DNA from: Chromatiales bacterium
GTDB lineage: Bacteria > Pseudomonadota > Gammaproteobacteria > UBA6429 > Thiohalophilaceae
NCBI GenBank assembly: GCA_026984045.1
Contig: JALSSV010000013.1
Location: 1-64,000 of the forward strand
Direction of reading: 5' to 3'
Length of the DNA: 64,000 nucleotides
Of the stretch, positions 2,034-21,817 are shown piece after piece. Position numbers and translations under genes: made by a program. How positions within the stretch are numbered: the first letter of the stretch is position 1; each line of letters opens with the position of its first letter. The notes under the pieces are model-generated. The model was not told the origin of the DNA. It made no database searches and saw nothing but the letters and a program-made list of their open reading frames with translations.

Positions 2034-4106
2034 CTACTCCCCGCAGATTTCCGCGAGCAGGGCCTGCTGGGCGGAGAGGGGTTCTTCGCCATCGGCGGGG
2101 GTGGCGCGTTCGTAGCGGCCGTCGGGCTGGAGGATCCAGGCCTGGGTGTTGTCGTGCAGGTAGTAGTCCAGTTCGTGGATCACGCGCTTGCGCAAGCGGG
2201 CGTTTTCGATGGGGAAGCAGGTTTCCACGCGGCGGAACAGGTTGCGTTCCATCCAGTCGGCGGAGGCGCAGAACACTTCGGGCTTGCCGGCGTTCTCGAA
2301 ATAATAGACCCGGGTGTGCTCGAGGAAGCGGCCGACGATGGAGCGCACCTCGATGTTCTCGGAGACGCCGGGCACGCCGGGGCGCAGGCTGCACATGCCG
2401 CGCACCACCAGGCGGATTTCCACCCCGGCCTGGCTGGCCCGGTACAGTTCCTGGATGATGCGCTTCTCCACCAGCGAGTTGATCTTGACCACGATGCGCG
2501 CCGGCCTGCCGGCCTCGGCGTTTTTCGCCTCGCGGCGGATCCGTTCCACCAGGCCGTCGAACAGGGTGAAGGGCGACTGCAGCAGGCGGTTGAGCTTGCT
2601 CACCTTGCCGAGGCTGGTGAGCTGCAGGAAGATCTTGTGCACGTCGTCGCCGATCGCCCGATCGGCGGTCATCAGGCCGTAATCGGTGTAGAGGCGGGCG
2701 GTGCGGGCATGGTAGTTGCCGGTGCCCAGGTGCACGTAGTCGCGCAGCTCGCCCTGCTCGCGGCGCACCACCAGCGCCATCTTGGCATGGGTCTTGTAAC
2801 CGACGATGCCGTAGACCACGTGGGCGCCCACTTCCTGCAGGCGGTTGGCCACGGCGATGTTGGCCTCCTCGTCGAAGCGGGCGCGCAGTTCGATGACCAC
2901 GGTCACTTCCTTGCCGCCGCGGGCGGCGCGGACCAGGGCATCCACCAGCGCCGAGTCGGCGCCGGTGCGGTAGAGGGTCATCTTGATGGCCAGCACGTCC
3001 GGATCCTTCGCTGCCTGGCGCAGGAAGTCGATCACCGGCACGAAGGAATCGAAGGGGTGGTGCAGCAGCACGTCCTTCTTGCGCAGCACCTCGAACAGGC
3101 TGGCACCCTGGGCGAGTTCGGCCGGCAGGCGCGGGGTGAAGGGCGGGAACTTGAGATAGGGCCGATCCACCAGATCGATGATGGCCTGCAGGCGGTTGAG
3201 GTTCACCGGGCCGTTCACCTGATAGACGTCGTCGGGCGTCAGCTCGAAGGTCTTCATCAGGAACTCGGTGAGATCCGGCGGGCAGTTGTCGGCCACCTCC
3301 AGGCGCACCGCGTCGCCATAGCGGCGCGAGGGCAGCTCGCCCTCGAGGGCGCGCATCAGATCGTCCACTTCCTCTTCGTCCACGAACAGCTCGGAATTGC
3401 GGGTGACCCGGAACTGGTGGATGGAGAGCACCTTCATGCCCGGAAACAGCTCGCTGGCATAGGCGTGGATCACCGAGGAGAGGAACACGAAGTCGTAGGG
3501 CCCGCTGCCGGTCTCGGGTGGCAGACGGATGAGCCGCGGCAGGGCCCGCGGCGCCTGCACCACCGCCATGCCGCTGGAGCGGCCGAAGGCGTCCTTGCCG
3601 CGCAGGGCGACGATGAAGTTGAGGCTCTTGTTGAGGATGCGCGGGAAGGGATGGGCCGGGTCCAGGCCGATGGGACTGAGCACCGGCAGCAGTTCGTGCT
3701 CGAAGTAGTGGCGCAGCCAGGCGTCCTGTTCCGCGGTCCACTCGGTGCGGCGGATGAAGCGGATCTGTTCCGCTTCCAGCGCCGGCAGCAGTTCCTCGTT
3801 GAGGATCCGGTACTGCTCGTCCACCAGGGCGTGGCAGCGTTCGGACAACAGCGCCAGGGTCTCCTGGGGCGAGCGACGGTCGATGTCGGCCACCGCCACG
3901 CCCAGGCGAGCCTTCTGCTTGAGCCCGGCGATGCGCACCTCGAACAGCTCGTCCATGTTGGTGGAGGTGATGCACATGTAGCGCAGGCGTTCGAGCAGCG
4001 GCACGTCCCGGTCCACCGTCTGCGCCAGCACCCGGCGGTTGAATTCCACCAGCGAGAGTTCCCGGCCGAGGAACAGTTCGGGGCGATCGAGGTTGGGAAG
4101 ATCCAT
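2034..4106 (-). CDS. ppk: polyphosphate kinase 1
   Basis: Membrane-associated enzyme that makes inorganic polyphosphate reversibly from ATP. I chose the ATG at 4106, giving 690 residues starting MDLPNLDRPELFLGRELS, the usual PPK1 opening and length; the longer open frame only adds antisense of the upstream gene. PPK1 signatures are present: the N-terminal LVEFNRRVLAQ and SINMDELFEVR-like (here TSTNMDELFEVR) helices, and the two histidine regions of the phospholipase-D-like catalytic half, GYKTHAKMALVVRRE and YVHLGTGNYHARTARLYTD. It lies 68 bp downstream of the OlsF-like gene on the same strand and is probably co-transcribed from the PhoB-type promoter at 6009-6042, although a perfect -10 at 4137-4142 may give it its own promoter. 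Confidence 0.97.
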   Translation of the reverse strand: MDLPNLDRPELFLGRELSLVEFNRRVLAQTVDRDVPLLERLRYMCITSTNMDELFEVRIAGLKQKARLGVAVADIDRRSPQETLALLSERCHALVDEQYRILNEELLPALEAEQIRFIRRTEWTAEQDAWLRHYFEHELLPVLSPIGLDPAHPFPRILNKSLNFIVALRGKDAFGRSSGMAVVQAPRALPRLIRLPPETGSGPYDFVFLSSVIHAYASELFPGMKVLSIHQFRVTRNSELFVDEEEVDDLMRALEGELPSRRYGDAVRLEVADNCPPDLTEFLMKTFELTPDDVYQVNGPVNLNRLQAIIDLVDRPYLKFPPFTPRLPAELAQGASLFEVLRKKDVLLHHPFDSFVPVIDFLRQAAKDPDVLAIKMTLYRTGADSALVDALVRAARGGKEVTVVIELRARFDEEANIAVANRLQEVGAHVVYGIVGYKTHAKMALVVRREQGELRDYVHLGTGNYHARTARLYTDYGLMTADRAIGDDVHKIFLQLTSLGKVSKLNRLLQSPFTLFDGLVERIRREAKNAEAGRPARIVVKINSLVEKRIIQELYRASQAGVEIRLVVRGMCSLRPGVPGVSENIEVRSIVGRFLEHTRVYYFENAGKPEVFCASADWMERNLFRRVETCFPIENARLRKRVIHELDYYLHDNTQAWILQPDGRYERATPADGEEPLSAQQALLAEICGE

Positions 4107-4174: not shown

Positions 4175-5980
4175 TCAAGCCGAGCATGCCGATCCCCCGG
4201 CATGGGCGGCCTGAAAGGCTTCCGCGCCGACTTCGCCCATGTACTTGCGCAACAGGCGCGGATCGGTTTCGCGCAGATCCACCCGCACCAGGCCGTCGAT
4301 CACGTTGCTGAACTGGCGGTCGACATTGAAGCCGAGCATCTGCCCGCCCAGCTTGAGGTATTGCCGAATCAGCACCGGCACACCGCGGGCATCGTTTTCC
4401 AGGACCGCCAGCAGGGAGGCGAGTTCCTCGAGCGAGTCCACCTGCCGCAACATCTCGCTCCCCACGCCGCGCGGCCGCGTCCAGGGACGGCGCGGCCTGA
4501 TCTGGCGGGCGAGCCGTGCGTCGAAGCGGTGGCGGCGCAGGAACTCGATCAGCAACTGCTGGGAGGCGGGGCTGTAGTCGGCGCTGATGCTCACCGGCCC
4601 GAACAGCACCGCATGGCGTGGCTGGGCCGCCACGAAGCGGCCGATGCCCTTCCACAACAGTTGCAGGGGCGCGAAACCGCGCTGGTATTCGGGCCGCACG
4701 AAGGAGCGGCCCAGCTCGATGGCCGGCGGCAGGCCGTAGAGGAAGGCGCGGCTGTAGCGGAACAGTGAATAGGTATAGAGCCCGCTGCGGCCGTACACCG
4801 GCAGGATCTCCTCCACCAGCCCGAGGCGGTAACCGCCCACTACCTCACGCGTGGCCCGGTTCCAGACGAACAGGTGGTGGTAGTGCTGGTCATAGAGATC
4901 CAGATCGATCTCCCGGCCGGTGCCTTCACCGGCGGCGCGAAAGCTGATCTCGCGCAGGCGGCCGATCTCCTGCAGCAGTTCGGGGATCTGCCCGGCGCGG
5001 GCGTGCCAGACCTCGAAATCGCCGTTCTCGAGCAACCGCTGTTCCACCGGCAGATCACGCAACTCCGTCTCCAGCCGCCTCGGCTCCCGGGGCGATATGA
5101 TGGGCGCCTGCGCGGTGGGCATGCCCTGCGCCTCCGGCCCATCCTGTTCCTGCAGCAGACAGGTGCGCAGGCGCAAAAAGGCGATCTGGCGGCACTCGTC
5201 GCCCACGTCGGCCAGGCGCCGGGGCGTGATCCCCGTACCGATCCGCAGACGCAGCAGGCGACCACGCTTGTTCAGCAGCTCCCGCGGCAGCAACAGGGTC
5301 TTGATCAAGGGATGGGCCAGGGCGGCCAGATAGAAGGCCGTGCTGTTGCGGCCCTGGATGTGGATCGGCACCACCGTGGCCCCGGTGCGCCCGGCCAGCC
5401 GGGCGACGGATCGATCCCACTCCCCGTCCTCGATCCGCCGGTTGCGCAGATGAATGCCGGAGACATCCCCCGCCGGAAACACGATCAGCGCCCCGCCCCC
5501 GCGCAACCAGCGCAGACCTTCGCGCAGGGGCTTCAGATTCTGGCGCGCCGCCGCCTCGCCGCCATAGGGATTCACGCCAAGAAACAGCTCCGCAAGCTCC
5601 GGGATGCGCTTGAGCAGGCTGTTGGCCATCACCCGCACGTCGGGCCGCCGGCGCAAAAGCAGCTCGGCCAGCAGCATGCCTTCCACCGCGCCGCAGGGAT
5701 GGTTGGCCACCACCAGCAGCGGCCCGCGGGCCGGCAGCCGCTCCAGGCTGCCCTGATCGACCACGTGACGCACCTCCAGCGCCTCGAGGGCCAGGCGCAG
5801 GAACGGCGCCGGCGCATCGCAGGGCGGCAACCGCGCATAGCGCCGGGCCAGGGCGTCGATGCCGAGCAGTTTCTCGATGCCGCGCTGGAGCCAGCGCAGG
5901 AGCGGATGGCGGCGGGCGGCGGGGATCAGATCGTCGAGTCGCAGGGGCTGATCGGAACGCACGGCGGGGGATGGGGACAT
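4175..5980 (-). CDS. olsF: bifunctional acyltransferase: PlsC/OlsA-like domain plus OlsB-like domain (OlsF-like)
   Basis: 601 residues with two enzyme domains. The N-terminal half (about 80-270) is a lysophospholipid-type acyltransferase of the hemolysin/LPLAT group: NHPCGAVEG at 93-101 supplies the catalytic His with an acidic partner, and FPAGDVS at 168-174 is the second block. The C-terminal half (about 300-600) is a GNAT-like N-acyltransferase of the OlsB/hemolysin type, with LYDQHYHHLFVWNRATRE followed by VVGGYRLG. In Serratia OlsF, this order makes ornithine lipid from ornithine and two acyl-ACPs, giving a phosphate-free membrane lipid. By analogy this may make ornithine or another aminoacyl lipid; the amino acid used cannot be read from sequence. 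A GGAG ribosome site precedes the ATG. Partnership with ppk and an upstream PhoB-type box fit a phosphate-starvation role. Confidence 0.75.
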   Translation of the reverse strand: MSPSPAVRSDQPLRLDDLIPAARRHPLLRWLQRGIEKLLGIDALARRYARLPPCDAPAPFLRLALEALEVRHVVDQGSLERLPARGPLLVVANHPCGAVEGMLLAELLLRRRPDVRVMANSLLKRIPELAELFLGVNPYGGEAAARQNLKPLREGLRWLRGGGALIVFPAGDVSGIHLRNRRIEDGEWDRSVARLAGRTGATVVPIHIQGRNSTAFYLAALAHPLIKTLLLPRELLNKRGRLLRLRIGTGITPRRLADVGDECRQIAFLRLRTCLLQEQDGPEAQGMPTAQAPIISPREPRRLETELRDLPVEQRLLENGDFEVWHARAGQIPELLQEIGRLREISFRAAGEGTGREIDLDLYDQHYHHLFVWNRATREVVGGYRLGLVEEILPVYGRSGLYTYSLFRYSRAFLYGLPPAIELGRSFVRPEYQRGFAPLQLLWKGIGRFVAAQPRHAVLFGPVSISADYSPASQQLLIEFLRRHRFDARLARQIRPRRPWTRPRGVGSEMLRQVDSLEELASLLAVLENDARGVPVLIRQYLKLGGQMLGFNVDRQFSNVIDGLVRVDLRETDPRLLRKYMGEVGAEAFQAAHAGGSACSA

Positions 5981-6008
5981 CGGGATACTCCGTGAAACTC
6001 GCGCAGGG

Positions 6009-6042
6009 AGTATCCGGTCCGTTCATGACCGTTCGAGGACAG
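6009..6042 (-). promoter_or_regulatory. PhoB-type box and -10 element for the olsF-ppk operon
   Basis: On the minus strand, 6042 to 6025 reads CTGTCCT-CGAA-CGGTCAT. This is two 7-bp half-sites in direct repeat with the 4-bp spacing of a PHO box, 12 of 14 positions matching CTGTCAT twice. Ten bases further on is GATACT (6014-6009), a -10 at the spacing used by PhoB promoters, where the box replaces the -35. The ATG of the OlsF-like gene follows 28 bp after the -10. A 9-bp inverted repeat (5983-5991 with 6007-6015) overlaps the -10. Confidence 0.6.
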
Positions 6043-6075
6043 GGGGATGATGGTTTGGTGACGGGTGATGTGGCG

Positions 6076-6092
6076 GTCGCGGCTTGCGCCGC
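6076..6092 (-). repeat. partial REP element, family ii
   Basis: The first 17 bases of the minus-strand family-ii repeat (GTCGCGGCTTGCGCCGC) are present; the head sequence is missing. It lies between the divergent-facing upstream region of the OlsF-like gene and the end of the diguanylate cyclase gene. Confidence 0.5.
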
Positions 6093-6137
6093 GCCGACAG
6101 CGAAGACCGTCTGAAAACAGCTACCCACCACGGCAAT

Positions 6138-6162
6138 GTCGCGGCGGGGGCGCCGCTCCTAC
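6138..6162 (-). repeat. REP element, family i
   Basis: 25-bp minus-strand family-i copy with one mismatch, ending 17 bp before the stop of the diguanylate cyclase gene. It may serve as part of that operon's transcription end. Confidence 0.7.
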
Positions 6163-6179
6163 GGGGGTTATCGATCCAT

Positions 6180-7871
6180 TCAGTTCGACTCGACGCGGTT
6201 GCGGCCGTTTTCCTTGGCGCGGTAGAGGGCCGCGTCGGCGCGCTGGAAGAGGCCTTGGGCATCGTCGCCGGGGCGGGACTCGGTGAGGCCACAGGAGGCG
6301 GTGATGGGCACGCGCTTGCCGCGAAAATGGAACTCGGTGTCGGCGATGGCCTGGCGCAGCTTGTCGGCCACCGGCTCGGCATGGGCGGCGTCGGTCTCCG
6401 GCATCAGGATCACGAACTCCTCGCCGCCATAGCGGGCGGTGAGATCGGTCTCGCGCACCCGGTCGCGCAACAGGCGGGCGATGACGGTGAGCACCTTGTC
6501 GCCGGCGGCGTGGCCATAGGTGTCGTTGATGGACTTGAAGCGGTCCACGTCCCACACCAGCAGGGCGAAGGGCGCGCCGTAGCGCTTGAAGCGGGCCAGT
6601 TCCTCCTCCAGCCGGCGATCGTAGGCCAGGCGGTTGGGAATGCCGGTGAGGGGATCGGTCATGGCGCTGGCGCGGGCCGACTCGGCCTCCGCCTGCAGGC
6701 GTTCCAGTTCCCCCTGGGTCTGTTCCAGTTGCCGCTCCAGGCGGTCGATGACCTTGCCGGCATCCTCGTGCACGCCGTTGTGCTGTTCGAGGAAGCGGTC
6801 CATGTGATTGCGGATCAGGATCAGCCGGGACTGCACGGCGGTCTTGAGGGCGTCCAGATCCTCGGCGTCGGCCACGCTGCGCTCGATGTCGCTGACCTCG
6901 TCGCGCACCCGGCTGTCCACGTCACGCCCGGCCTGATCCGACAACGCCTGCAGACGGGCGGTCTCGCGGATGTCGCGATCCAGCTCGGCGAGGCGCTCGG
7001 TGAGCTGGCGCAGGAAGGCTTCCAGTTCCCGCTTTTCCGCCTGCACCCGGCTCTGCAGGCCGTTGAACAGCTCGGCGGTGGCCAGCAGCCCCGCCTGCAG
7101 GGCCTCGGTATCGTCACAGGGCTCGAGGCGGCGCTTGATGAGTTCCGCCTCGGCGTGCAGGGTGTCGGGCCACTGCATCTGCTCCAGCAGGCGGATCAGG
7201 GTGTCGGCCGCCAGGCGGCAGGTGGCTGCCTCTTCGTCGGCGGCGGGCGCCGCGGGCGGTTGCGCTGCGGCGGGTTCGGAAGGCGCTTCGGGGACCGGCT
7301 CGGCAGGCGGGCGGCGTCGGCGGAACAGGCCGCCGAGGAGGCCTTTCGCGCCCTGCTCTTCATTGGGGGCAGCGGGCGGTGATTCCCCCTCGTCGGTGTC
7401 CGGCGCCTTTCGGGACAGCAGCAGTTCCACCAGCTCGGCCAGATCGACGGCCACCGCCGCGGCCTCGGCCGGGGTTTGCGCCCTGGCCAGTTGGCGTTGC
7501 ACGAAACGCTGCTGCCGGGCATAGGCGTCGGGGATGGACAGCCGTTCGAAAAGGGTCTTGAGCGGCGCCGCCGGGTCCGCCTCCGCGTCGGGCGCGCGCT
7601 CGTCGAGCCGGGCGATCAGGCGCGAGACCTCTTCCACCAGCTTCTGCAGACGCAGCGGGTTGCGTTCGTTGCGCAGCGCCTGGCGCAGGGTGTCCAGCAG
7701 CCGATCCAGATCCGGATCGCGGTGATCGGCGGCCAGGGTCAGGCGGGTGGCCAGGCGCCGCAAGAGGGCCTCGGTCTCGCTCCAGGCCTTTTCCTTCTCT
7801 TCCAGTTCCTCCAGCGCAGCGTAATACTTGCGCTGCCAGTGATCCGCCTGGCGGCCGCCCTCCCGGCCCAT
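6180..7871 (-). CDS. dgcP: diguanylate cyclase with N-terminal coiled coil (DgcP-like)
   Basis: 563 residues. The C-terminal GGDEF domain has the active-site RYGGEEF and an upstream RETD that fits the RxxD inhibitory site, so it should make cyclic di-GMP and be feedback-inhibited. No membrane segment is seen. Residues 1-390 are charged and largely helical (EELEEKEKAWSETEALLRRL near residue 18), with a low-complexity Pro/Ala linker near residues 165-205. P. aeruginosa DgcP is encoded in the same place, downstream of dsbA and an endonuclease/phosphatase gene, so I use that name; the match rests on memory of gene order and the N-terminal pattern. The ATG follows the previous stop by only 3 bp, which suggests translational coupling. 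Confidence 0.8.
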   Translation of the reverse strand: MGREGGRQADHWQRKYYAALEELEEKEKAWSETEALLRRLATRLTLAADHRDPDLDRLLDTLRQALRNERNPLRLQKLVEEVSRLIARLDERAPDAEADPAAPLKTLFERLSIPDAYARQQRFVQRQLARAQTPAEAAAVAVDLAELVELLLSRKAPDTDEGESPPAAPNEEQGAKGLLGGLFRRRRPPAEPVPEAPSEPAAAQPPAAPAADEEAATCRLAADTLIRLLEQMQWPDTLHAEAELIKRRLEPCDDTEALQAGLLATAELFNGLQSRVQAEKRELEAFLRQLTERLAELDRDIRETARLQALSDQAGRDVDSRVRDEVSDIERSVADAEDLDALKTAVQSRLILIRNHMDRFLEQHNGVHEDAGKVIDRLERQLEQTQGELERLQAEAESARASAMTDPLTGIPNRLAYDRRLEEELARFKRYGAPFALLVWDVDRFKSINDTYGHAAGDKVLTVIARLLRDRVRETDLTARYGGEEFVILMPETDAAHAEPVADKLRQAIADTEFHFRGKRVPITASCGLTESRPGDDAQGLFQRADAALYRAKENGRNRVESN

Positions 7872-21799: not shown

Positions 21800-21817
21800 C
21801 TGTCATACTTCCGTCAT
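21800..21817 (+). promoter_or_regulatory. PhoB-type box upstream of dctQM
   Basis: CTGTCAT-ACTT-CCGTCAT: two direct 7-bp half-sites with 4-bp spacing, 13 of 14 positions matching the PHO-box half-site. It ends 38 bp before the dctQ start. The sequence 10 bp downstream (CACTTA) is a poor -10, so the case is weaker than at 6009-6042. Confidence 0.4.

Follow-up and report, generated by a model that had tools for sequence, protein, structure and literature searches.

A predicted PhoB-activated promoter with tandem PHO boxes ahead of an olsF-like gene and ppk in a little-studied gammaproteobacterial lineage

Control of an OlsF-type acyltransferase by PhoB has been described for VC0489, the olsF gene of Vibrio cholerae, which is PhoB dependent and induced by phosphate limitation (PMC12186959, citing Barbosa et al. 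2018). In E. coli, PHO boxes are direct repeats with a 7+4+7 layout that replace the -35 element and keep a strict spacing to the core promoter (PMC4415409, PMC10294691); many of the sites bound by PhoB in that organism, mostly intragenic ones, leave transcription unchanged (PMC10294691). Predicted Pho boxes have also been reported for the PlcP-Agt glycolipid genes of Pseudomonas aeruginosa (PMC8528852) and upstream of the ornithine-lipid gene olsB in Burkholderiales (PMC7814305), and ppk commonly belongs to the Pho regulon (PMC4415409).

Here, we analyze a window of 64,000 nucleotides (positions 1-64000 of contig 13, from a genome totaling 2.98 Mb), in which an olsF-like gene is, with high probability, transcribed from a sigma-70 promoter that is activated by PhoB standing in for the -35 element and from which read-through would raise ppk. 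Because PhoB control of olsF has been published for V. cholerae, we regard the locus as a further, well-supported case of a form of control that is already known. The two cases have in common an OlsF-type bifunctional acyltransferase under PhoB in phosphate limitation, but control was established by experiment in V. cholerae and is predicted from sequence here, the gene here precedes ppk, and its protein scores under the curated OlsF cutoff. Like the pstS, phoA, and phoB promoters of E. coli, the promoter described here has 7+4+7 repeats in place of the -35 element at a strict spacing, although its half-sites are variants richer in GC and, in this clade, the -10 elements are TAGACT- or GATACT-like. 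P. aeruginosa, whose genome encodes PhoBR, likewise has predicted PHO boxes before genes for phosphorus-free lipids (PMC8528852); its lipids are glycolipids rather than the aminolipid expected here, and the present genome holds a comparable gene pair with tandem boxes (G000:C43, considered below). The predicted Pho boxes of Burkholderiales olsB also lie before ornithine-lipid genes, but in a two-gene OlsB/OlsA pathway, whereas the enzyme here is of the fused OlsF type.

Table 1. Features of the olsF-like locus (window coordinates) and of the tandem PHO arrays elsewhere in the genome
Feature	Position	Strand	Details
ppk1, polyphosphate kinase 1	2034..4106	(-)	690 aa; ATG at 4106; TIGR03705, 965 bits
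olsF-like gene	4175..5980	(-)	601 aa; Pfam PF19576, PF01553, PF13444; NCBIfam NF052615
Perfect 9-bp inverted repeat GGATACTCC...GGAGTATCC	5983..6015	(-)	joins -10 element and ribosome-binding site; judged incidental
-10 element GATACT	6009..6014	(-)	exactly 10 bp 3' of downstream PHO box
Downstream PHO box (half-sites 3 and 4), CTGTCCT-CGAA-CGGTCAT	6025..6042	(-)	replaces -35 element; read from sequence
Upstream PHO box (half-sites 1 and 2), CCGTCAC-CAAA-CCATCAT	6047..6064	(-)	read from sequence; in 11-bp register with downstream box
Terminator-like hairpin, 9 pairs then TAGCTGTTTT	6124..6148	(-)	separates GGDEF gene from olsF promoter
GGDEF gene, upstream neighbor	6180-7871	(-)	5' of olsF promoter
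Array of calcineurin-type (PlcP-like metallo-) phosphoesterase gene	C43:29048	minus	CAGGCT exactly 10 bp later
Array of GT4 glycosyltransferase gene	C43:30270	minus	CAGACT exactly 10 bp later
Array of porin gene, Porin_4 family (L173)	G000:C34:1433-1470	plus	GAGAAT exactly 10 bp later

The initial annotation had named the two genes as OlsF-like and ppk, and both names hold, the second product being polyphosphate kinase 1. The OlsF-like protein unites in one chain an N-terminal lyso-lipid O-acyltransferase (PF19576/PF01553, residues 25-278) and a C-terminal GNAT N-acyltransferase (PF13444, residues 342-442), which is the domain combination by which OlsF is recognized, and its best NCBIfam model is that of OlsF (400.5 bits over residues 33-581 of 601). 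Since this score falls below the curated equivalog cutoff of 620 bits, we use the name OlsF-like, at the level of the family; the models of the glycine-lipid enzymes GlsB and GlsA match the protein as well, more weakly. The product is likely a phosphorus-free aminolipid, whose head group may be ornithine.

It is plausible that ppk is reached by read-through from the olsF promoter, which would bring the making of a phosphorus-free lipid and of polyphosphate together in one probable operon. The two genes are separated by a 68-bp gap (4174-4107) that contains a perfect TATAAT, and a search of this gap found no terminator and no -35 partner for the TATAAT; in addition, the order GGDEF-olsF-ppk is kept in two related genomes (G012 and G023). 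The perfect TATAAT nevertheless lends itself to a promoter belonging to ppk itself, in which case ppk would stand outside the regulon and PhoB would control olsF only, and ppk does not adjoin olsF in another relative (L004 in G019, which keeps GGDEF-olsF) or in the other contexts examined. We give such a separate ppk promoter, which is compatible with our reading of olsF, a substantial but somewhat lower than even chance. Beyond ppk1 lies ppx, in convergent orientation.

On the other side of the olsF-like gene, the terminator-like hairpin 3' of the GGDEF gene (one of two terminator-like sites found, against a mean of 0.0 in shuffled sequences) implies that the olsF-like gene needs its own promoter here. 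No sigma-70 promoter of the TTGACA/TATAAT type is predicted within 5900-6250. The minus strand carries at 6064-6025 the array CCGTCAC-CAAA-CCATCAT-CCCC-CTGTCCT-CGAA-CGGTCAT, in which four head-to-tail half-sites make up two tandem PHO boxes, each consisting of two 7-nt direct repeats near CTGTCAT with a 4-nt spacer (an 11-bp period). Matches of the successive half-sites to CTGTCAY amount to 6/7, 5/7, 6/7, and 6/7 (23/28 for the array), and those of the boxes to the 14 consensus positions amount to 12 for the downstream and 11 for the upstream box; when compared to the published consensus CTGTCATNNNNCTGTCAT (PMC8528852), the downstream box again matches at 12 of 14 positions. The box replacing the -35 element stands at the fixed distance of 10 bp from a sigma-70 -10 element, GATACT, which agrees with TATAAT at only 4/6 positions and lies 28 bp from the ATG of the olsF-like gene (5980). 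The initial annotation had recognized the downstream box, on the minus strand and with 12 of 14 half-site positions, as well as GATACT exactly 10 bp after it, and in sequence, strand, coordinates, count, and spacing we find this as stated; the box is real, but the element is larger than described, with two half-sites missed upstream (CCGTCAC at 6064-6058 and CCATCAT at 6053-6047). Individually, the half-sites are imperfect, with 5 to 6 of 7 positions matching, and this counts against the PhoB reading, as do the 4/6 match of GATACT and, by analogy, the E. coli sites that are bound by PhoB with no change in transcription (PMC10294691).

The inverted repeat listed in Table 1 suggests a different role for GATACT, namely, as an arm, and not a -10 element, of a functional RNA hairpin that would mask GGAG, the ribosome-binding site, as a translational switch. 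Its 9-bp stem is perfect, the ribosome site lies inside one arm, and the centroid structure is exactly the GGATACTCC...GGAGTATCC stem; however, the window holds 28 repeats of like strength, the region folds no better than shuffles (z of -0.54), relatives show 5- to 6-bp pairing in 2/7 cases and none in 5/7, and the 5' arm would be outside the transcript if transcription started 6-9 bp after GATACT. We rejected this hairpin, which is neither conserved nor rare, and consider a translational switch very improbable.

How unusual the PhoB-type element is depends on the unit that is scored. The genome contains 19 matches to the 18-bp box consensus with no more than 2 mismatches, versus 3 for a reversed control, so a single 12/14 box is only suggestive, and we discarded the box alone as too weak a basis for judging the site. 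Just 4 of these 19 matches are followed at exactly 10 bp by a hexamer matching at least 4/6 positions of TATAAT: those of pstS (TAGACT), phoB (TCTAAT), a PstS-OmpA fusion (TAAAAA), and the olsF-like gene (GATACT). The genome's own pstS and phoB promoters and the olsF-like promoter each have 2 mismatches on the 18-bp box, and, because so few box matches carry such a hexamer and pstS is among them, the site ranks, above background, with the Pho promoters known in this genome, in the comparison that the initial annotation had proposed as a check.

The four-half-site array, on the other hand, is strong evidence. Four GTCAY units at 11-bp intervals, with up to 2 mismatches, occur 4 times in the 2.98-Mb genome and 0 times in the control. 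A held-out matrix, trained on phoB, pstS, and the olsF promoters of relatives and excluding the olsF-like promoter of this genome, ranks the downstream box 2nd and the upstream box 3rd of 128,000 window positions, and the score that it assigns to the four half-sites plus the -10 element is 24.8 bits versus 11.95 at the next best window position, a value reached by 0 of 30 million positions of first-order Markov sequence. A matrix built from the phoB and pstS promoters only also places the array first in the window (19.8 versus 12.9 for the next place).

The one same-genus genome that was compared (G001) is without an olsF-like gene, and conservation is therefore testable only at the level of the family, where OlsF-like genes with 35-57% protein identity were found in eight related genomes. 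Scored with a matrix that had no olsF promoter in its training set, the olsF-like promoters of all eight relatives (L002-L009) contain PHO-type arrays (P ≤ 0.01 versus dinucleotide shuffles); in seven, the highest-scoring promoter array stands first or second among all arrays of its locus and is followed after exactly 10 bp by a -10-like hexamer (TAGACT, CAGGCT, or TATTTT). For L002, CAGTCAA-CCGTCAT-ATTGCGC-CCGTAAT, followed after 10 bp by TAGACT, can be seen by eye, whereas the matrix chose another place. The initial proposal of a PhoB-type box before the olsF-like gene is thereby supported, the element being one of four tandem arrays genome-wide with an architecture that is kept in relatives. 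Although a lone 12/14 box is not rare (19 genome matches versus 3 in the control), the significance of the array, the held-out scores, the genome rank, the conservation, and the lack of a predicted TTGACA/TATAAT promoter in 5900-6250 make it hardly credible that olsF has another, unrelated promoter and that the array arose by chance or persists as a relic.

Farther afield, most distant OlsF-like genes (in Balneolales, Acidobacteria, Planctomycetes, and others) are without a PHO array by this clade's matrix, a result that tells us nothing, since the motif may differ in other phyla, and no array was found within 350 bp of the Vibrio OlsF-like loci L128, L142, L144, L156, and L163, which may be either of two Vibrio paralogues. 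At L184 (G019:C3:779964-780023, in a relative), an 11-bp tandem repeat, GTCACGAGATG, mimics a PHO array and is probably a simple repeat.

A single protein of the genome exceeds the curated cutoff for PhoB (347 bits versus 296; the next paralogue has 196). In an alignment with chain 3t72 of E. coli PhoB (E value of 9e-44), its DNA-binding domain is identical in the stretch RTVDVHIRRLRKAL; thus, the genome encodes a PhoB that, with a DNA-binding domain and recognition helix like those of E. coli PhoB, should be able to read the motif. From this domain and from the architecture, rarity, and conservation of the array, we infer that upon phosphate starvation, phosphorylated PhoB would bind the four 11-bp direct repeats (6064-6025) as two tandem dimers and would bring RNA polymerase with sigma-70 to GATACT, the weak -10 element 10 bp downstream. 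The induced transcript, with a predicted start near 6003-6000, would yield the OlsF-like enzyme for synthesis of the predicted phosphorus-free aminolipid, and read-through into a cotranscribed ppk would raise polyphosphate kinase too. Given a clear predicted PhoB site before a lipid gene, the cell very probably makes a phosphorus-free lipid when phosphate runs out, which would connect phosphate-driven replacement of lipids with a gammaproteobacterial lineage that has been little studied.

The other three GTCAY arrays of the genome precede genes for a PlcP-like phosphoesterase, a GT4 glycosyltransferase, and a porin (Table 1), and a simple search for such repeat arrays offers a way to catalog the phosphate regulons of related genomes. 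The GT4 and calcineurin-type phosphoesterase genes adjoin, with a tandem PHO array before each (L170/L171; G000:C43:29048-30318, minus strand), and the models nearest to the glycosyltransferase are those of N-acetylglucosaminyl-phosphatidylglycerol and glucosyl-diacylglycerol synthases. Named by domain, neighborhood, and box, this pair looks like a PlcP-Agt system of glycolipid renovation, and the Porin_4 protein is a candidate phosphate-starvation porin. By the same measure, pstS and phoB carry single boxes. One could speculate, although we think it unlikely, that tandem four-half-site arrays in this lineage mark mainly a membrane-remodeling branch (OlsF-like aminolipid, PlcP/Agt-like glycolipid, and porin) and that the number of repeats sets the PhoB~P threshold or timing for phospholipid replacement; the contrast between tandem (lipid and porin) and single (pstS and phoB) boxes involves few promoters of one genome.

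Two further PHO-type boxes deserve mention. Within the window, CTGTCATACTTCCGTCAT (21800-21817, plus strand; 1 mismatch) lies 38 bp from the likely ATG of DctQ, the small subunit of a TRAP transporter, and has neither a good -10 element at 10 bp nor a tandem array. Elsewhere in the genome, the PstS-OmpA gene mentioned above (L086; G000:C58:45577-45594, minus strand) encodes a fusion of a PstS-like binding domain with an OmpA domain and has a PHO box with TAAAAA 10 bp farther on.
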